The notes under the pieces: model-generated
Database searches by the model: none
The model's input: only the letters and a program-made list of their open reading frames with translations
Told to the model about the DNA's origin: nothing
IMG/VR virus record: IMGVR_UViG_3300024433_000078
Span: 1 to 20,801 of that record
Direction: 5' to 3' (one strand)
Length of the DNA: 20,801 bases
Origin: a virus
Part shown: piece by piece, positions 10,064 through 19,664 of the stretch
Layout of the letters: each line of letters starts with the position of its first letter
Position numbering within the stretch: position 1 is the stretch's first letter
Program-made: the position numbers and the translations under genes

Positions 10064-10462
10064 ATGGCTGTCCATTCTGGAACCACTGGTTCAATTACCC
10101 TCAAGGATGGGGGAACTGATCTTATAGCCAGTTTACATGCTTCCCGTTGGTCTATCGACTTAGGGATGGAAACGGTAGATGCTACGGCTTTCAGTCCCAC
10201 CAGCAATGCGCGAGTCCGATTGCCGGGTCTGTCTGCCCACAGCGGAACCGCTGAGGGTTTTCTGGACGATACCGCCAGCATAGACGAGACAGCATGTTTT
10301 GATAATCCCGATGCGGCTATTGAGTTCCAAGGTACAGCGGATACTGGAAGGACGTACACCGGCAATGGTTACATCACGGCGTTTTCGGCGAGTGTCGGCG
10401 TCGGCGAGACAGCTACGTGGACCGCGAGCTTTGAGTTTGCGGGAGCTGTCGCTATCTTATAA
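10064..10462 (+). CDS. tail tube-like protein, paralogue 1
   Basis: This 132-residue beta-rich protein begins MAVHSGTTGSITL and carries the core DATAFSPTSNARVRLPGL (near residues 39-56). The C-terminal half ends ITAFSASVGVGETATWTASF. The FSASVGVGETATWTASFEF pattern, with strands separated by a Gly/Thr loop, resembles major tail proteins of siphoviruses, which form the hexameric tube rings. The position upstream of the chaperone pair and tape measure is where the tube gene is expected. AGGAG lies upstream of the ATG. It is closely related to the next gene. Confidence 0.7.
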   Translation: MAVHSGTTGSITLKDGGTDLIASLHASRWSIDLGMETVDATAFSPTSNARVRLPGLSAHSGTAEGFLDDTASIDETACFDNPDAAIEFQGTADTGRTYTGNGYITAFSASVGVGETATWTASFEFAGAVAIL

Positions 10463-10476
10463 GGAGAATGCCATAA

Positions 10477-10875
10477 ATGGCTGTACATACAGGAACGACC
10501 GGAGCTATCACCGTGATACCGGCGGCGGGCGAGGATTTTGTGGCTGCCTTGCACCCGAATCGCTGGTCGCTCGATATGAGTATGGAGACAACGGACGCAA
10601 CGGCATTCAGCCCGACCAGCAACGCGCGTGTGCGCCTGCCGGGTTTATCTGCACATTCCGGCTCGGCTGAAGGCTTACTCGACAGTACGAGCACGTGGAA
10701 CGAAGCAGATACCTTTGACACTCCGCTCTTATGTGGCTTTGTGCTGACTGCGGTTAGCGGGCAGACGTATGAGTTTGATGGATATATCACCGGATTTTCG
10801 GCCAGTGTAGGTGTGGGTGAAACCGCAACGTGGTCTTGCACATTTGATGTAACAGGCGCTGTGGCGATTGCATAA
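10477..10875 (+). CDS. tail tube-like protein, paralogue 2
   Basis: Also 132 residues, aligning end to end with the preceding product. The stretch from DATAFSPTS through LSAHSG is identical in both, as is FSASVGVGETATW. The regions between differ, for example residues 70-100. Third-codon positions in the shared core differ widely (ACG/ACG, CCC/CCG, CGA/CGT, CTG/TTA), so the duplication is old and the protein core is under selection. AAGGAG precedes the ATG. One copy may build the tube and the other a minor ring or decorated variant; sequence alone does not say which. It overlaps the next gene by one base. Confidence 0.7.
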   Translation: MAVHTGTTGAITVIPAAGEDFVAALHPNRWSLDMSMETTDATAFSPTSNARVRLPGLSAHSGSAEGLLDSTSTWNEADTFDTPLLCGFVLTAVSGQTYEFDGYITGFSASVGVGETATWSCTFDVTGAVAIA

Positions 10876-11858: not shown

Positions 11859-11965
11859 CGCCGCAACTGTTGGGGGCAATGCCCTGGCCTCAGCTTAAGA
11901 ACCTGCACAAGCAGTTGCCGGACTTGATTAAGAACGACCCGAGGATACACACCGATGGCCGCTGA
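11822..11965 (+). CDS. -1 frameshift extension of the tail chaperone (gpGT-like)
   Basis: In the -1 frame relative to the chaperone, codons read VTADLCYWYSGLTPQLLGAM and then PWPQLKNLHKQLPDLIKN, ending at TGA 11963-11965. There is no ATG in this segment, and it would otherwise be an empty gap between the chaperone stop (11858) and tape-measure start (11955). Slippage of lysyl-tRNA from AAG to AAA within GGG-GAA-AAG would give a fusion of 150 + 47 = 197 residues. Lambda G/GT uses a related G-run/A-run site, but the phase here differs from the classical X-XXY-YYZ heptamer. The end overlaps the tape-measure gene by 11 bases, as is common for GT extensions. Confidence 0.65.
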   Translation, partial: VTADLCYWYSGLTPQLLGAMPWPQLKNLHKQLPDLIKNDPRIHTDGR

Positions 11966-13376
11966 GCTTGGCGAACTTGTTTTGACGATGGAGGCGGATG
12001 ATCTGCGCCTCAAGAAGCAACTCAAAGGGGCAGAGAAGCTCACCAAGAAATCCGCCGACTCTATGGCGAAATCGCTGGACAAAGTGAAAGCGTCGTCTGT
12101 CGACACCAGCCAAGCCTTCAGTGTTCTCGAAAAGGCGGCAGCGGCAACCGGCCTCACTTGGCTGTCGCAAATTAAGAGCATGGGGGAACTGGTATTTGAA
12201 CTCGTGCGCGTCAAAACCAGCCTCGGTTTAAGCGCCTCGGCCTATACAGTTGAGACGGTCGCAGTCGGCAAGAACACGATTGCGATGACAGCGAATACGG
12301 CAGCGCGGACTGCCCAACGTGCCGCAATCACAGCGATGACTGAGCCGTGGGAAGGGCTGGCACGCGCTAGAACGAGGGCTGGTGTAGCGGCGCGCGGAGT
12401 GCGACCGGCTCGCGTAACGGTTGGCAAAGCGGGAGCCTCGACCACTGCGCAACTTGGCGCGAGCGCTGCGTATACGCAGCGTGCCCGGTTGGCTCAACTT
12501 GGTAAGGGGTTAATGACCGCCGGGAAAGTCAGCGCAATTGCCGGTGCCGCGCTTGCGGTTGGCAATCTCGCGCACCAGTTGTGGGGGCTTTGGAAAGTAC
12601 GCAAGAAAAACGCGGAGGTGTTAGAGAAGAGCCAAGAGCTAGAGGGGCGACTGAGCCTGCGAATGCAAGCGACGCGCGATGCCACCGAAAAACAGATGTC
12701 TACCCTGCGGCGGCAGCTTCAAGTTGCCCGCAAGGGTCTGACTGGGGCGGCGGCCCACGAGGTCATGCAACGCGGCACGAAGAAAGACGTGGTTCTCGAT
12801 ATGGAATTGCGGGTTATGCGAGTCCAGGAGCGACGGCTGCTTGTCGCGGCGAATCATGCTCGCAAGGATCAGGAGCGTACCGCACGGTTGCAAGAACAAC
12901 TGGCAACAGAGGAGCGGCTTACAGCAGAGAAGAAACGCCAAGCTGAGTTGACACGACAGCAGAACATTGCCGCCAGGGCGGCCCGCATTGCGGCTGGTGT
13001 AGGAAGCCCATACGAAATGGGCCTCGAGGCGGAACGCCTTATGAACGTCATCGCCCAACGACAGAATTACTTGTCGGAGACGATTAAGCGGTTAGAGACG
13101 AAAGTTAGATACCCTGGCGACCTTGCTTCGCAGGCTATTGCACAATTGAAAGGCGCAACGGCCGCAACCCCGGTTCCGGGTATCGGTGGTCGCGGTATGC
13201 TTGTATCCGCGCGCGAGGTTGCAGGTATGCCGGTGCCGAGACTAGGAGCGGGCGGCGCTGGCGGCAGAGGGCCACAGAGTCTTGAACGCAAGGGGCTCAA
13301 GGCGCAGGAAGAGACAGCCAAGAACACGCGGCGGATAGCGGACGCGGTGCAACAAGGTATGGGGATGGCAGCCTAA
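11955..13376 (+). CDS. tail tape measure protein
   Basis: Long, helical and Ala/Lys/Arg-rich, placed after the chaperone pair. It begins with the typical ELGELVLTMEADDLRLKKQL start and has a repeating charged helix (DSMAKSLDKVKASS). A hydrophobic, likely membrane-interacting segment (GLMTAGKVSAIAGAALAVG) lies around residues 180-215. Long coiled coils rich in Arg, Gln and Glu follow, for example QERTARLQEQLATEERL. The C-terminus QEETAKNTRRIADAV is a common tape-measure ending. With 473 residues at about 1.5 angstrom per helical residue, the tail would be roughly 70 nm. It determines tail length and may help DNA cross the membrane. Confidence 0.82.
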   Translation: MAAELGELVLTMEADDLRLKKQLKGAEKLTKKSADSMAKSLDKVKASSVDTSQAFSVLEKAAAATGLTWLSQIKSMGELVFELVRVKTSLGLSASAYTVETVAVGKNTIAMTANTAARTAQRAAITAMTEPWEGLARARTRAGVAARGVRPARVTVGKAGASTTAQLGASAAYTQRARLAQLGKGLMTAGKVSAIAGAALAVGNLAHQLWGLWKVRKKNAEVLEKSQELEGRLSLRMQATRDATEKQMSTLRRQLQVARKGLTGAAAHEVMQRGTKKDVVLDMELRVMRVQERRLLVAANHARKDQERTARLQEQLATEERLTAEKKRQAELTRQQNIAARAARIAAGVGSPYEMGLEAERLMNVIAQRQNYLSETIKRLETKVRYPGDLASQAIAQLKGATAATPVPGIGGRGMLVSAREVAGMPVPRLGAGGAGGRGPQSLERKGLKAQEETAKNTRRIADAVQQGMGMAA

Positions 13377-14293
13377 TGGCATCGGTCACAAAGCTCTGGG
13401 ATGCGACGGTAGGCTACCAGACGGGTCTGCATGGCCCGAAGCGAACAACCATGCCCTATCAAGTGACCGTCGATGCTGTCGATGACAATCCAATCGACGT
13501 TATGAAGCGGGAGGTTACCGGCGTACCTATCGGGACGCATCATCCGCACGATAACTCACTCGTTGTGGTCGATTACATCATCCAAGACCGGATGAACACG
13601 CTCAACTGGCGCGTCGATGCGATTTACACTACCCCGCTTCACTTTGGGGAGTTGCAGCCGCTCAACAATGGTTGGGCTCTTAGTTGGCAATCCACAACAG
13701 AGGCGTACCAACTCTATCATACGGTCGAGCAGAATCCGAAGCACCGGAAGATCATTGGGCTTCCCGAATACCGTCTCGCAAAGCCGAACGAACTTCTACA
13801 AGGCGGCGGTGAGCCGCAGTCCATTCTGTATACGACCCAGGATAGTTTCCAGCACAGGCTTGTGCGCACTGGGCGCTTTATCCCCGACCCCTTTGACCAA
13901 GCAGCGCCGCTAATCGGCTTTTCCTTGACTCGGCGTTTCCTGCAATTGAACGCGGACGCCGTGAGTGCGGCACATACCTATCTGCGCCGGGTTAATGTTG
14001 ATTTGTTTTTCTATGTGGCGGCTGACAGGTACACCGTGCGTTTCGACCATATCGCGGGCCACGCCGTTCCGAGCGATGCCCTGGGAACCGAAGGCGGATA
14101 CGAATGGGAACTGCGGCTTGATTTCACCCACAACCCTGATGGGTTCACGCCGATAAAGAAGTTCCACATGTGGATAGACGCCGACACTGGCGCGATGTCG
14201 TTCATTCTGGACTCTCGGGACAATCGCCTGGAGGAGGAGTTTGAGGTGTATAAGTTGGCGAGCATGAATCAATTGATGAGCAACTTCGGATGA
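13376..14293 (+). CDS. distal tail protein of unknown family
   Basis: The 305-residue protein follows the tape measure with TAATG coupling, where siphoviruses encode Dit/Tal-type tip proteins. I do not recognise the family. Visible features are GTHHPHDNSLVVVDYIIQD, a WALSWQSTTEAYQLYHTVEQ segment, and a C-terminal EGGYEWELRLDFTHNPDG followed by DADTGAMSFILDSRDNRLEE. The mixture of strands and aromatic residues without signal peptide or membrane helix suggests a soluble structural component. A baseplate or tail-tip role is inferred from position only. Confidence 0.6.
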   Translation: MASVTKLWDATVGYQTGLHGPKRTTMPYQVTVDAVDDNPIDVMKREVTGVPIGTHHPHDNSLVVVDYIIQDRMNTLNWRVDAIYTTPLHFGELQPLNNGWALSWQSTTEAYQLYHTVEQNPKHRKIIGLPEYRLAKPNELLQGGGEPQSILYTTQDSFQHRLVRTGRFIPDPFDQAAPLIGFSLTRRFLQLNADAVSAAHTYLRRVNVDLFFYVAADRYTVRFDHIAGHAVPSDALGTEGGYEWELRLDFTHNPDGFTPIKKFHMWIDADTGAMSFILDSRDNRLEEEFEVYKLASMNQLMSNFG

Positions 14294-15078
14294 TAGGTGC
14301 GCTACCACATTTTGAGTTGGGGATGTCTTGGAAGGATGTTAAGGCACGCGAGATGAATACGCTCGTTGCCGAAGTGCAGCGCCTACGAACGATCATCGGC
14401 GGCACGGGGGTCAATGTGAACTCCACGCCACAGGGCACGAGCATAACGGCAACGACGAAACCGCCAATCACCAAGCCAAGGGAATTGATTGTCTCGCTTA
14501 TCGAGGAGCCAACAGACGAATCACAGACATTGCTTGTCCGTCAAGTGCAATACGCATCCCTTCCACCCGCTGCGGGGGTGTATGAATGGGACGCCAATCA
14601 TTTTGAGGCTTACCCGGCCCAGGGCTTTGAGTGCCTGGACTATGGATCGTATTATTGTAACCCCACAACAGACGCGCCCGCTGGGGATGCCCTGTTTCTT
14701 CGTGCTGAACGCCGTCAGAATGTCTGGATGTTATATCCGCCGCCTGCTATGGCTGCAATTGCCAACGTCGTTGTTATCCGTGCCATCCCCGAAGGCGGCG
14801 AGTACGGTACGGTCTTGCAAGTACAGCGCGTTACTTTGACGGATGGAGGTCAATGGGCGGCGACAGGCGAGACGTTCGAGATGCCGACGTTCCCGTTGAT
14901 TCCGGCGATTGTTTATCGTCTGGCCATTCTGGCAGAAGGTGAGCCGCAGCAAATGGGCGACATCTTGCCGACGTGTTCGGTTGCCGGGGTGGAAGTGGTA
15001 GAACTATTTTTCCCGATGGTTCCTACTGTCGTGCGCAGTGATGAGCCGCATAGAGGATGTAGGCCGAGGGTATTATGA
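14290..15078 (+). CDS. distal tail/fibre-adaptor-like protein, unknown family
   Basis: The start is coupled to the previous gene by ATGATAG overlap. Residues 10-45 contain a helix MSWKDVKAREMNTLVAEVQR and then GGTGVNVNSTPQGTSITATT. That combination, a short helix that counts positions (MNTLVxEVxRL) followed by a GVxVxxxPxGTxI strand, occurs in phage collar, adaptor and fibre-base proteins. The remainder is mixed strand and loop, with cysteines in ECLDYGSYYCNPT and a proline-rich end. Length is 262 residues. It probably links the tail tip to the fibres; the specific role is unknown. Confidence 0.55.
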   Translation: MIGALPHFELGMSWKDVKAREMNTLVAEVQRLRTIIGGTGVNVNSTPQGTSITATTKPPITKPRELIVSLIEEPTDESQTLLVRQVQYASLPPAAGVYEWDANHFEAYPAQGFECLDYGSYYCNPTTDAPAGDALFLRAERRQNVWMLYPPPAMAAIANVVVIRAIPEGGEYGTVLQVQRVTLTDGGQWAATGETFEMPTFPLIPAIVYRLAILAEGEPQQMGDILPTCSVAGVEVVELFFPMVPTVVRSDEPHRGCRPRVL

Positions 15079-15566
15079 CTTGTCGCCGCAGTAAACTTTG
15101 GACTGAGGAGCATTACCCCGAAGATGGTTTTGCGTTCACGGCAGATATGCGGTCTGAGGCTGTGATGCTGCCGACCCACCGACCTCTGAATCACACAGAG
15201 GGGCTTGATGAGGTTGCACCGGGTGCTTATGAGTTTGGGTCGGCGCACATGGTGCGTGCCGTGCCGGAAACGGCTTATGAGCATCCTTGTCACCGGGCAT
15301 ACGGCATAATGGCACGGCGGCAGGACGGGTCGTATACAATGGTAATGTGCAGCACGGGAACCGCTAAAACTAGAGCCCCCATGTGGTCGGAAGGAAGGAT
15401 GTTTCGTCAAACGGAAGCCGATCTGATATTTCCTTCGTGGCAGGCAGATGTCCCGGATGAAGTTATGCCACGCGGGGCTTACGGGATGCTTGTGGAGCAT
15501 TTTCAGCCATTTCCAGTGGAAGCGGTTTATAGCGCCGATTATCTGCTGTGCAGGATATATGAGTAA
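15075..15566 (+). CDS. small distal-tail protein, unknown
   Basis: This 163-residue protein is coupled by ATGA to its upstream neighbour and by TAATG to the next. The N-terminus has CRRSKLWTEEHYPEDGFAFT, the middle HPCHRAYGIMARRQDG and the end FPVEAVYSADYLLCRIYE. No family is recognised. It has no signal peptide or membrane helix. Codon use and tight coupling say it is a real gene of the tail operon. It may act with the adjacent cysteine-rich protein. Confidence 0.55.
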   Translation: MTCRRSKLWTEEHYPEDGFAFTADMRSEAVMLPTHRPLNHTEGLDEVAPGAYEFGSAHMVRAVPETAYEHPCHRAYGIMARRQDGSYTMVMCSTGTAKTRAPMWSEGRMFRQTEADLIFPSWQADVPDEVMPRGAYGMLVEHFQPFPVEAVYSADYLLCRIYE

Positions 15567-17326
15567 TGGGATTTCTCGCTGATTGCCTTGGCTGTTACCG
15601 TCGCCCCGGCGGGTGCTATTGTACGGACATGGGCGGCGAGGATACGCACGGTCATGGCGAATCGGGCCACAATGGTAATTGCTTCACCCGCATAGATGAT
15701 AAGGCCCAGTACGGTGTCCTCGATATGCACGGTTGCGATGTCGGCTGCTGGCCTTGCTCGGACCAACCAGGCGATATCATGTATGGGACAGCACCCAAGC
15801 AGCAATACCACGCAGGGCGCGGGCGGCGTTTCCTCGCATCGAGTACCGCCGAGCAGATTGGTCCTACTGCAATATACCCCAGTACGGATGCCCGTGGGGT
15901 AGTGCACGACTTGCGCGCCGGGACACCGCGACTTGTACGTCAGATGACGCATTATCGGCGCGCCGCGTGTCATGACAACGGTACTGCTCTTATTACTGGT
16001 TCGAGGGAATGCCTCGGCGATGACGATGTTCCTTGCAGTTGTTGGCCTAACCCGGATACGGCTCCAGACCCGTCGACTGGCATGTGCGAGCCGCAGGGTA
16101 TTCCCGTTGGGAACCAAGTTGTAGGCTATTATCAGGAAGGTTTCTTTTTCGCAGGCGAATGGTCGCCGCGAATGGCCGAACGGACAATGCAATGCCGCCG
16201 ATTTTATGAAGGTGGCACAAAGGATGTTGAAGTATGGCATCCGCGAGACAATACCGTATTTCTGCGATCATCGGTTTATGGCGGTAGTAGTGGTAGCCGC
16301 AATGGTTGTGTTGTCGATTGGCTGGTAGCCGGTGGCGGTTTTGTCGAAAATTCGGTATGCAGCGGTTATGCTCATGGGTGGTGGACGCCAGGGCCAGCGG
16401 GAATGTGGATATGGCACGATGGACATGCCGGTGAGAAATACATCAGCAGCATGGCGCCTTCTGCCAGTGCGATATTCGAGACAGTTTACATCACCAACAA
16501 TACGGCGTCATTCCGGGTCGGCGATTCTCCGACAATTGATCCTCGGGTAACTGCGATTCAGAATCACGTGCTCGAAATGATCCGAACGCCCGGCATGTTC
16601 CAGGACGTTGAGTTTGACCGTCTTGACCACGAGTGCAAGCTAGGCCAGAACAATAGCGTGCTGGGGCGATATTCCCGTAGCTGGGAAAGCGATAATGACG
16701 AACCAGGGCCGACTGTTGCGACATTCGAGTGCAGCCGTCTGAAGTGGGGGATGGTTCCATTTATCGCCACGTTGTTCATCGCCAAAGTGTGGTTCGCTCT
16801 TGACCTGCAGTTATACCACCAAAATGATTTTGATACTGCTCATTCGAGATGGCGAGATTTTGTAGCTCCGCATTCTGTTCTCCGTATCCAGGCATGGCTG
16901 GGACTTCGCACTAGCATAGACGGACCTCCACCGCCCGACGATGCCTTGTACTACGCCGAGTACGATGGCGTTGCGGCACATTGGCCACGGATCATTACGG
17001 TTCCCCACCCACCTGATGGTTGGGCTATCCCGTCAGACGGGAATCCTATGCTCTTGGCCCAGGAACCGGGGCAGTATTTCGTTCCGCCTGCCTATGTCGA
17101 ATGGCGCGGCCAGCTTAATGATTTCTCTGCGCCCAATCTTGCGGGGCAAGGATTTCCGGCGGAAGTCGATGCTGGGCATGGTTTTGATGCCGATTTCCGA
17201 ACCTTAAAGACTGCTCTCGGCTCATGGAGCGTTCCAGGTGCGCCGAGCGATCTCGACGCGAACATGGGGGACCGTAATCAGATATGGGATGGAAACGTAG
17301 CATTTAGACTTGCGGATGTTGCATGA
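15566..17326 (+). CDS. large cysteine-rich distal tail protein, unknown family
   Basis: The 586-residue product has an unusual N-terminus with cysteines at 7, 10, 17, 19, 39, 57, 61 and 64 (CLGC, CYC, CDVGCWPC) and histidines at 28, 30 and 35. Further cysteines follow (RECLGDDDVPCSCWPN). The dense Cys/His pattern suggests metal binding or multiple disulfides. The middle part contains WTPGPAGMWIWHDGHAGEKY and many Gly/Trp. The C-terminal third has FAPHSVLRIQAWLG-like helices and a PDGWAIPSDGNP segment. Size and position match a receptor-binding or tail-tip protein. It has no export signal, so it would be made in the cytoplasm and assembled into the virion. I do not recognise the family. Confidence 0.55.
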   Translation: MGFLADCLGCYRRPGGCYCTDMGGEDTHGHGESGHNGNCFTRIDDKAQYGVLDMHGCDVGCWPCSDQPGDIMYGTAPKQQYHAGRGRRFLASSTAEQIGPTAIYPSTDARGVVHDLRAGTPRLVRQMTHYRRAACHDNGTALITGSRECLGDDDVPCSCWPNPDTAPDPSTGMCEPQGIPVGNQVVGYYQEGFFFAGEWSPRMAERTMQCRRFYEGGTKDVEVWHPRDNTVFLRSSVYGGSSGSRNGCVVDWLVAGGGFVENSVCSGYAHGWWTPGPAGMWIWHDGHAGEKYISSMAPSASAIFETVYITNNTASFRVGDSPTIDPRVTAIQNHVLEMIRTPGMFQDVEFDRLDHECKLGQNNSVLGRYSRSWESDNDEPGPTVATFECSRLKWGMVPFIATLFIAKVWFALDLQLYHQNDFDTAHSRWRDFVAPHSVLRIQAWLGLRTSIDGPPPPDDALYYAEYDGVAAHWPRIITVPHPPDGWAIPSDGNPMLLAQEPGQYFVPPAYVEWRGQLNDFSAPNLAGQGFPAEVDAGHGFDADFRTLKTALGSWSVPGAPSDLDANMGDRNQIWDGNVAFRLADVA

Positions 17327-17327
17327 A

Positions 17328-17900
17328 ATGACCACAGCGACCTACAAAACGTCCAGAAACGGCCCAGGATCGCACGGGCGCTTCGATGTGCCTACCGGGA
17401 CCCTGGATTTCGGCTACGGGGCTGATTCGCTGCCGGACATGCGTCTGCGGCTGATGTCGCAACGCATCATACCACCGGCCGAGCCACTGGAAAGCCGGGA
17501 ACCAGGTCAACCGGCGTTAAACCGTCGCTTTTATATGTACATGCGGACCTTTATCCAGCAGGCGACGATTCGCTCGGTTCTCGCGGCCCTCGTCAAGCTC
17601 CTGGTTCGTCGTCCTGTACTTTGGCTGCTCGATCACATATACTGGTTCGTCGTGACGGTAACAAGTCCGAGCGTCGGACCAGCCCAACTTCTAATCCGAA
17701 GGAGAATGTGTGATGAATGCAGCCAAAAGAAACTGGTCGGTCGGTATCATTATTGCGGGGCTTGCGGTTGCCCTCGCTGGGTGTTCGCAAGACTGGAGTT
17801 CTGTTTGCCAAAAGCAGGATTCAACTGTTCTCTTGGCTTACACCCCGGCTCGATCGCTATCCGAAAACGAAAAACGAACGGCGAGCCGGTACGGAGATAG
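17328..17900 (+). CDS. protein with C-terminal cysteine cluster (putative zinc-binding)
   Basis: The ATG at 17328 directly follows the stop of the cysteine-rich protein; upstream in-frame TTG 17310 or ATG 17316 are possible. The 190-residue product has a basic, proline-rich N-terminus and a hydrophobic stretch at about 80-112 (IRSVLAALVKLLVRRPVLWL onward) that may be a membrane segment or helical hairpin. The C-terminal cluster has C128, C131, C143, C146, C148, C159 and C167 (CDECSQ, then YCGACGCPRW, ending GFNCSLG). The CxxC...YCxxCGC...C arrangement is a pattern I associate with small zinc-binding phage domains. An alternative reading frame over the last 190 bases carries a lipoprotein-like signal. 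I favour this frame because the cysteine spacing is regular, but it is not certain. Confidence 0.55.
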   Translation: MTTATYKTSRNGPGSHGRFDVPTGTLDFGYGADSLPDMRLRLMSQRIIPPAEPLESREPGQPALNRRFYMYMRTFIQQATIRSVLAALVKLLVRRPVLWLLDHIYWFVVTVTSPSVGPAQLLIRRRMCDECSQKKLVGRYHYCGACGCPRWVFARLEFCLPKAGFNCSLGLHPGSIAIRKRKTNGEPVRR

Positions 17901-17904: not shown

Positions 17905-18783
17905 ATGGCATTAAGCGCAGGCGATACGGTTGTTTGGTACGGTAGTACGGACACGGACTGGGAAGTGGTGACGAATTGGAGCCCGCAGGAAATACCGATT
18001 AACCAGGTGCATGTTGTGGTGTCAGCCTCTGCGGTCAATTCAATGCTGCTTAACCTCGACAGACAGGGGGATACTGCCGGTGCCGGGTTGGACCTGCGCA
18101 CGTTCCATATCGAAGGGGGTTGCACCGTCGATGTCGGGGCAAGTGGGGCGCCGCTTAAATGCACGGTACACAACACGCTTAAAGAGCCATCTATTGAACA
18201 CCATGGCGATGGAACATTTCATTATAGCGCTGAAACCGGGACCAGCTCGCCCGCCGATCTTACAGATTTCATCCTAGTCAATTCGCCGAATATGGATATA
18301 GCATTCCAGTTGACAGGTGATGTTGCGGTTGCTGGCCTTGTGGCCATATCCGGGCGTACCGTTGTCGGCTCAGCGTACACGGGCGTTATGGCCTACCTGT
18401 TTGTGCGGCATGGCCGTTACGGGGCCGTCGAACCTGTGGTAAGTGTAGAGGCACACGCTTCAGCAAGGATCGCGTATGTCTTCGCGCGGGCCGGGGTCAT
18501 AGACATAGCCCGCGAGGTCACCGCTATCGCCCTGAATGGTGGAGTTTACACGCAAGAGGCGGAATACATCTACCAAGCAGAGGTGTACGGCGGCGTATTC
18601 AACTTCAATTCCACAACGACGATGGATGTGCTACGCATGATGGGGGGCGTCTGCGATACGACAGGAAATGCATTGCCGAAAACAATCGCACAGTCGTTCA
18701 TCGCTCCCGAAGCGACCTTAGTCCGAAGCCCTCGGTTGACCATAGGGACCGAGTGGGACATCTTCGGCGATAATGTGGATTAG
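17905..18783 (+). CDS. beta-structured tail/fibre protein A
   Basis: The 292-residue product starts at ATG 17905, with GGAG (17893-17896) 8 bases upstream. I prefer this to the in-frame ATG 17713 because the N-terminus SAGDTVVWYGSTDTDWEVVTNWSP parallels the start of the next gene. The body is dominated by short strands with alternating hydrophobic residues (AVAGLVAISGRTVVGSAYTG; GGVYTQEAEYIYQAEVYGGV), typical of right-handed beta-helix or beta-prism fibre parts. No catalytic motif is seen. It probably forms part of the tail fibre or an appendage. Confidence 0.6.
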   Translation: MALSAGDTVVWYGSTDTDWEVVTNWSPQEIPINQVHVVVSASAVNSMLLNLDRQGDTAGAGLDLRTFHIEGGCTVDVGASGAPLKCTVHNTLKEPSIEHHGDGTFHYSAETGTSSPADLTDFILVNSPNMDIAFQLTGDVAVAGLVAISGRTVVGSAYTGVMAYLFVRHGRYGAVEPVVSVEAHASARIAYVFARAGVIDIAREVTAIALNGGVYTQEAEYIYQAEVYGGVFNFNSTTTMDVLRMMGGVCDTTGNALPKTIAQSFIAPEATLVRSPRLTIGTEWDIFGDNVD

Positions 18784-18794
18784 GAGTAAGCGAA

Positions 18795-19664
18795 ATGGCA
18801 GACACGAAAACATGGATTGGCGGGACGAGCACGGCATACGCTACGGCCGCCAACTGGGATACGGTGACTGTGCCCGCGACAGGTGATACGATCATCTATA
18901 ACCATCAGGCGCAGCAGGGGTGTTTGACCGGCTGCGATGCAGGTAGCGACGGGCACACGTATCCGAAAGTCATCGTCACGAGCGGCTATAAATACGGCCT
19001 CGCTGCCAATGGCGACCCGCTGGACCCGACGGCCATCACCAAGCTGTATTGGTCGAGCGCCTTCGCCGGTACGTCCTATCTTAAGGGCGATATCGACGAT
19101 GGTACGTTCGAGTCGCCGACCGGCGAGGCTGGCGTAGTCAGCATTGACGGCACGCTGAATCATATCGCCTTAAACGGCGGGAAGATGCACCTCACGACCA
19201 ATGCCGATCTCAATAGCGGCGACAAGCTACTCGTGATGACTGAATCGCGTGGCGTTCCATCGCGGTTGACCATTGACAGCGGGGTAACGCTGACCACTTC
19301 GCACATCGTTATGAACGGTGGTGAGATAGTAACGCTGGCGGCCCCCGTAACGCTCACCGTCAACGGCGGCCATGCCATTTTGAGAGGTACGGCAGCGGCA
19401 ACGCTGATTAACATTGACGGGGACGGCGTTGTTGACTGGGATAGCACCGGCACAATTGCGATGTTCCACGTGCGAGGCGATGGTTTACTTCGCTCGATTC
19501 AGTACACCCGTGCCAAGACGTTGACCGAAGGGCATATGTACGGCAACGGTCGGGTTGACCTGCGGGGTAAGGGCGGTCAATTGTTCACTCTGACGAATGG
19601 TATCTTTGTCCACGGTGCGAACAGCCCGCTGTTTGCCCCTGGCTCAGTGGTAGCAGTGTCCTAA
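18795..19664 (+). CDS. right-handed beta-helix-like tail/fibre protein B
   Basis: AGGAG (18782-18786) lies 8 bases before ATG 18795. The 289-residue protein begins KTWIGGTSTAYATAANWD and continues VPATGDTIIYN, an opening common in bacterial and phage beta-helix proteins. It then alternates short strands and turns (VVSIDGTLNHIALNGGKMHL; LTIDSGVTLTTSHIVMNGGE; VTLTVNGGHAILRG), a regular coil pattern of a parallel beta-helix. It shares its opening architecture with the preceding gene, so the two may be distant paralogues. Depolymerase activity cannot be judged, because no catalytic acid pair is recognisable by eye. Confidence 0.65.
   Translation: MADTKTWIGGTSTAYATAANWDTVTVPATGDTIIYNHQAQQGCLTGCDAGSDGHTYPKVIVTSGYKYGLAANGDPLDPTAITKLYWSSAFAGTSYLKGDIDDGTFESPTGEAGVVSIDGTLNHIALNGGKMHLTTNADLNSGDKLLVMTESRGVPSRLTIDSGVTLTTSHIVMNGGEIVTLAAPVTLTVNGGHAILRGTAAATLINIDGDGVVDWDSTGTIAMFHVRGDGLLRSIQYTRAKTLTEGHMYGNGRVDLRGKGGQLFTLTNGIFVHGANSPLFAPGSVVAVS

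Follow-up and report, generated by a model that had tools for sequence, protein, structure and literature searches.

A 586 aa cysteine-rich protein, P0001, is encoded behind the presumed tail genes of a viral DNA stretch of 20,801 bases (hereafter the window). As judged by alignment with its one detected homologue, a set of its cysteines spanning residues 39-265 (perhaps from residue 10) shows much stronger conservation than the remaining sequence. P0001 appears to belong to an undescribed family that is absent from the databases we searched. We tentatively propose, with a little less than even confidence, that it forms part of the distal tail structure (the tip or an adhesion device) in a siphovirus-like phage most likely infecting Planctomycetota, with cysteines cross-linked mainly by disulfides and a first cluster that may bind metal. 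A conserved cysteine-dense tail-tip slot would offer a handle on adhesion, and on the role of oxidation or metal in virions that are built in a reducing cytoplasm.

Pfam searches of the window identified a Terminase_3 protein together with a portal of Mu type and a protease resembling that of Mu. The remaining features are listed in Table 1. The P0001 gene lies downstream of the presumed tape measure, which is itself assigned by position and composition only and has no significant PHROG match (best E 0.19). The proteins encoded behind it are of 305, 262, 163, 586 (P0001) and 190 aa (ZR), in that order. An earlier note on this DNA had called P0001 a large distal tail protein; the location of its gene in the distal-tail region agrees with this, gene order being the one basis for the assignment. 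The P0001 gene is joined to its upstream neighbour by a one-base stop-start overlap (TAATG). The start codon is supported, since the identical overlap occurs in the homologue.

Table 1. Features of the window (window coordinates) and loci of the dispersed phage blocks in Phycisphaerae-class genomes.
Feature	Position or loci	Strand	Basis or remark
Window	20801 bases		IMG/VR virus record IMGVR_UViG_3300024433_000078
Major tail protein	10064..10462	+	phrog_1407, E 4.8e-10
Presumed tape measure, 473 aa, cysteine-free	11955..13376	+	position and composition only
305 aa protein behind presumed tape measure	13376..14293	+	L023 homologue, E 4e-16
262 aa protein	14290..15078	+	slot equals that of the 176 aa protein of L023
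163 aa protein	15075..15566	+	related to the 304 aa protein of L023
P0001, 586 aa cysteine-rich protein	15566..17326	+	ORF; homologue P0003
Eight-cysteine segment, codons 1-64 (7, 10, 17, 19, 39, 57, 61, 64)	15566..15757	+	ORF 15566-17326
Twelve aligned cysteines, codons 39-265 (39, 57, 61, 64, 135, 149, 157, 159, 174, 210, 248, 265)	15680..16360	+	default alignment with P0003
ZR, 190 aa protein	17328..17900	+	ATG at 17328; long predicted helix and six-Cys ribbon CxxC..YCGxCGCPxW..C
W-G-rich-type protein (by eye), like those after the L023 ZR gene	17905..18783	+	start codon chosen by us
289 aa protein (TWIGGTSTAYATAANW..)	18795..19664	+	similar-looking proteins after the ZR gene in L023
Capsid block	L140, L141, L143		
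Portal-protease block	L144, L145, L147		
Terminase block	L142		

P0001 contains 18 cysteines (residues 7, 10, 17, 19, 39, 57, 61, 64, 135, 149, 157, 159, 174, 210, 248, 265, 357 and 389). The sequence confirms the eight within the first 64 residues, with CxxC, CxC and CxxxCxxC patterns, that had first drawn attention to it. The first 270 residues hold 16 of the 18, and the density thus extends past residue 64. The 23 other ORFs of the window, with the cysteine-cluster protein that follows P0001 excluded, contain 48 cysteines in 5532 aa (0.87%). Against this background the binomial probability is 9e-8 for at least 8 cysteines in 64 residues and 6e-6 for at least 18 in 586; within P0001, that of finding at least 8 of the 18 in the first 64 residues is 2.4e-4. 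The next-richest 64-residue stretches among the other ORFs hold five cysteines (a 65 aa ORF at 228-425) and four (the terminase). This 65 aa ORF (CPLC..C..C..C) encodes a small protein that looks zinc-finger-like by eye. Lysine is scarce in the first 270 residues, with only three in P0001 and only three in its homologue. The AlphaFold2 model of P0001 had a pLDDT of 24.8 and was discarded.

The homologue, P0003 (591 aa; IMGVR_UViG_3300024518_000721, L023:5225-6997:-), was reached by scanning viral contigs for the ZR motif YCGxCGCPxW (15 loci) and inspecting the neighbouring genes; it is the only one found. The two proteins are 24% identical over 444 columns (single-comparison E 2e-8). Gene order in the P0003 contig matches that of the window: its 315 aa protein is related to the window's 305 aa protein (E 4e-16), its 304 aa protein to the 163 aa protein (E 1e-5), and a ZR gene follows. 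The 176 aa and 262 aa proteins that share a slot showed no significant similarity to each other (best E 0.029). All four cysteines of the window's 163 aa protein align with cysteines in the C-terminal part of the 304 aa protein; the latter also carries a cysteine-dense N-terminal region that the window's protein lacks.

In the default alignment 12 of the 14 P0003 cysteines stand opposite cysteines of P0001, and the count is 11, 12 or 13 depending on the alignment mode. The earlier note had named homologues with unconserved cysteines as evidence against its view; the sole homologue thus leaves that view standing. When P0003 was shuffled (n = 200, in the global mode, with a real count of 11), the mean number of cysteine pairs was 2.6 and the maximum 7. 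Because Cys-Cys scores drive alignments, cysteines were also masked before realignment; 3, 3 and 7 then coincided by mode when masked as X, and 7, 7 and 8 when masked either as A or as S. The hypergeometric probability is 4e-8 for seven coincidences (536 columns) and 0.009 in the worst mode. By these comparisons the conservation is real and its full extent is partly alignment-driven.

The conserved set does not coincide with the N-terminal segment. Among its eight cysteines only 39, 57, 61 and 64 pair by default alignment; 10 and 19 find partners only when the register is fixed manually to match CX8C..CX6C, and all 14 P0003 cysteines gain partners in that register. P0003 offers no cysteine partner for C357 and C389, nor, whichever register was tried, for C7 and C17. 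An emphasis on the N-terminus was therefore correct as to the eight cysteines and too narrow as to the conserved set, which covers residues 39-265. Nearby histidines had been pointed out as well; they are present at residues 28, 30, 35 and 55 and are hardly conserved, with only H30 opposite a histidine (1/4).

That the family is unrecognised, as had been suspected, was borne out by searches of Pfam, NCBIfam, PHROG, PDB and phage records, none of which gave a match. P0001 matched no Pfam or PHROG family at E<=1, no NCBIfam family at E<=0.1, and no PDB chain at E<=1. Used alone as query, it found no relative in viral contigs, genome contigs or the phage collection. The negatives of the genome search with P0001 are weak, because a search of seven records at E<=1 reported nothing although P0003's own record (G002) was among them. 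A single match among 199 Planctomycetota genomes (E<=0.01 cut) was a 67-residue stretch with stop codons (E 0.008) and was not counted. A search with A1 recovered only the contig already known and none of 392 genomes. In the phage collection nothing matched P0003 or the 315 aa protein of its contig, and scans with the 305 aa, ZR and 289 aa proteins gave no new relative, the 305 aa protein re-finding only the contig of P0003.

Since a distant relative retains many of them, the cysteines of P0001 are probably structural, acting through sulfur bridges or bound metal. Clusters of this kind had been considered unusual for a virion protein assembled in the cytoplasm, an expectation to which published structures offer exceptions. 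In lambda gpL, Cys173, 182, 205 and 212 are reported to hold a Fe-S cluster located in the C-terminal domain (PMC10721106). For phage JBD30 (PMC11445458) a putative metal is described as held by Cys147, 156, 238 and 245 in domain II of gp50, the upper baseplate protein, and the minor capsid protein is shown to contain a disulfide. Each of the two chemistries thus has a tailed-phage precedent. We lean towards disulfides plus one possible metal site in P0001. The cysteines would cross-link small domains that have little other core, mainly through disulfides formed after virions exit the reducing cytoplasm. The first cluster (C10, C19, C57 and C64) may instead bind metal as lambda gpL does, and ZR could act together with the cysteine-dense tail protein in assembly or attachment. 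Several points count against our reading: a single homologue was found, the tail location comes from gene order, only three cysteines coincide in two of the three modes when masked as X, and the similarity between P0001 and P0003 is weak by the measure of the genome search, which left it unreported at E<=1.

A metal-loaded tail tip, in which the N-terminal cluster binds a Fe-S cluster or zinc in the manner of gpL and gp50 and forms no disulfides, seems to us rather unlikely. P0001 (10/19/57/64) and P0003 (5/14/60/67) each contain exactly one CX8C..CX6C arrangement, and its inner spacings are those of gpL and gp50. Tail-tip proteins of RcGTA and R4C are described as having Fe-S clusters as well, and the reducing cytoplasm permits a metal site to form. 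The rule was nevertheless derived here from the residue numbers of two proteins, gpL and gp50, and was sought in P0001 and P0003 after the fact. Random placement yields the arrangement with a frequency of 10% (8 cysteines in 64 residues), 2.5% (6 in 67), 16% (18 in 390) or 12% (14 in 267), and 4 of 12 proteins tested have it, including two (L24_404 and g3_L118) with no detected relation to P0001. The shared spacing could be chance, judging by these frequencies. In addition, no alignment we made pairs C10 and C19 of P0001 with C5 and C14 of P0003, and the candidate site sits at the extreme N-terminus (residues 10-64 of 586), in contrast to the C-terminal domain of gpL and domain II of gp50. P0001 has no family or PDB sequence match, none to the tail-tip proteins of lambda, JBD30, RcGTA or R4C, and, unlike them, about ten further conserved cysteines. 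The Fe-S site is also dispensable in some tails, phage LSH1 having no cysteines there and cluster-free lambda homologues being reported (PMC13243795).

It is improbable, in our judgement, that P0001 is a secreted or cell-surface protein outside the virion, encoded inside a tail gene cluster. Its cysteine-dense, lysine-poor composition would fit such a role, and its virion location is deduced from gene order; against this stand the tightly packed flanking genes, the matching order behind the tail genes in two phages, and an N-terminus (MGFLADCLGC) with no signal peptide evident by eye. Redox switches or assembly intermediates in place of permanent cross-links are highly improbable in our view, given how many cysteines there are and how widely they are spread. 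A broader version of the cross-linked tail protein that we prefer would make P0001 a tail-tip adhesin family with a gpL-type N-terminal metal centre on a disulfide-dense body, its cysteine-dense slot recurring in Planctomycetota phages and in a domesticated, dispersed phage-derived particle of Phycisphaerae, perhaps adapted to a protein-rich envelope; taken whole, we regard this as a long shot. A literature search listed no publication on tail proteins of Planctomycetota phages, as judged from the listings.

The earlier note's second cysteine-cluster protein after P0001 is indeed present: ZR has seven cysteines (128, 131, 143, 146, 148, 159 and 167). Six are invariant in 11/11 aligned sequences; C143, C146 and C148 are imposed by the search pattern, and C128, C131 and C167 are free of it. 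The AlphaFold2 model (mean pLDDT 63) has a long helix at 64-112 and, at modest confidence, a beta-hairpin at 134-143; Foldseek returned no viral fold match to it at E<=0.001. PDB profile matches were weak (best E 0.011), and 9 of 10 were to eS31, ubiquitin-type ribosomal, rubrerythrin or nin-one-binding chains, all of which we take to hold zinc-ribbon or rubredoxin domains; the tenth was COMMD4. ZR shares paired cysteine knuckles with such domains and differs from them in the long helix ahead of the ribbon and in the modest E value. We consider it probably a zinc-ribbon protein that also has a long helix. Nothing significant came from PDB profile searches with A4, A5, A6 and A8. At 17713-17790, in a different reading frame of the ZR gene region, an AGGAG-preceded ATG begins a textbook lipoprotein signal (MNAAKRNWSVGIIIAGLAVALAGCSQ) that continues into the downstream ORF; it is probably due to chance, being absent from ten other loci read.

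Relatives of ZR occur in two contexts. With ORFs called mechanically, a cysteine-dense protein lies directly upstream in five of six phage-like modules, L034 being the exception; its cysteine content is 3.1% in the window, 2.4% in L023, 9.2% in L024 (404 aa, 37 cysteines), 4.6% in L025 (542 aa, 25 cysteines) and 8.8% in L036 (442 aa, 39 cysteines). The last three have no detected similarity to P0001 and contain CC pairs, which suit disulfides. In all six loci of the second context (L003, L006, L007, L009, L013 and L017) the upstream protein, defined as the nearest ORF of at least 150 aa, has 358-474 aa and 1.1-1.8% cysteine. The counts do not include copies that are solitary, degenerate, weak or cut by a contig end (L035, L037 and L128-L131). 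Among the motif matches in viral contigs, L008, L011, L012 and L014 duplicate the protein of L007, and L015 and L016, which have no CxxC, were taken as chance; L018-L021, among five loci of the genome scan, look like chance also.

The host is likely a member of Planctomycetota, as far as sequence relationships can indicate. ZR relatives are present in a Phycisphaerae MAG, and a terminase search matched 28 of 382 Planctomycetota genomes, the best match (52% identity) being in genome G359. G359 and the MAG seem to belong to one class, as searches by either drew the same genomes. The host is not certain, since terminase relatives also occur in phages of Thermobifida (48%, the best among phage records) and Streptomyces (43% and less). 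We fetched 26 terminase regions and annotated ten, of which L068 and L070 carry additional phage-like genes; the remaining eight appear by eye to be lone terminase-like genes. In tblastn searches with 15 proteins of the window, L023 and L024 (E<=0.05), only L034, L035, L036 and L038 matched among the regions fetched to that point. Cysteine-rich surface proteins are known from the presumed host phylum: YTV cell-wall proteins are reported in Planctomycetales only and not in early-diverging lineages (PMC8567305). P0001 matched no Pfam family at E<=1, which would set it apart from these proteins if Pfam includes a YTV model.

In L024 the place of the window's 305 aa protein is taken by a protein whose relatives occur in 15 of 110 genomes from the G359 class. 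The match of this L024 protein to the 305 aa protein is weak and comes via the family profile only (E 0.0013, probability 18%). At 14 newly fetched loci a relative of it heads, as gene 1, a small tail-tip-like cassette whose layout resembles that of the window. Genes 1-4 are present in eight loci (L116-L118, L120-L122, L124 and L126), with gene 1 of L116 and some genes 2 read by eye. L114, L115, L123 and L127 have genes 1-2 and no cysteine-rich genes 3-4 within 3.5 kb; L119 and L125 are cut by a contig end and hence not assessable, so that 8 of the 12 loci that can be assessed have the cysteine-rich pair. Cysteines invariant in 8/8 number 11 in gene 3 (about 165-190 aa) and 8 in gene 4 (about 85-110 aa). 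Profile comparison of genes 2-4 with the window families gave nothing (E 0.14-0.49), and the link of the cassette to P0001 is positional.

Phage structural genes in these genomes are dispersed (Table 1). All three genomes tested have exactly one HK97 capsid match (PF05065) and one HK97 portal match (PF04860), on separate contigs; Terminase_6N matched in only one of four genomes. The cassette shares the portal's contig in two genomes, adjoining the portal-protease block in G480, which has a further phage-like region (L146), and lying ~80 kb off in G424. Genes flanking the dispersed blocks look host-like by eye. Estimates of dN/dS were 0.05-0.15 for capsid, portal and protease; cassette genes 1, 3 and 4 gave 0.03-0.48. 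Synonymous sites were largely saturated in these comparisons, three pairs gave no estimate, and the G424 portal was excluded because it appeared as a pair of overlapping ORFs. Dispersed structural genes under selection, by which gene transfer agents are recognised, are thus present in Phycisphaerae-class genomes. Together with the cassette they resemble an undescribed gene-transfer-agent-like system; if confirmed, it would add such a system to the phylum Planctomycetota, for which a literature search by title gave none among the matches listed. In G359 a contiguous prophage-like cluster (L038, 7209-19237, partly read by eye) contains ParB-like, ATPase-like, terminase, portal-like, protease-like and capsid-like genes, a relative of the 316 aa protein of L024 and a 162 aa protein with 11 cysteines. 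It looks like the undispersed counterpart of the dispersed blocks.

Three further observations concern the window itself. Degenerate repeats of ~28 bases, in many copies by eye, precede the terminase gene (1520-2150); TRF reports just two short arrays there, and a comparison with Rfam gave no match. A scan with the portal returned a single contig, IMGVR_UViG_3300009529_001269 (4951 bp), whose portal is 88% identical; it is the only close relative found and ends before reaching the tail genes. The products of 10064-10462 and 10477-10875 are adjacent paralogous tail proteins with 64% identity over 132 residues.
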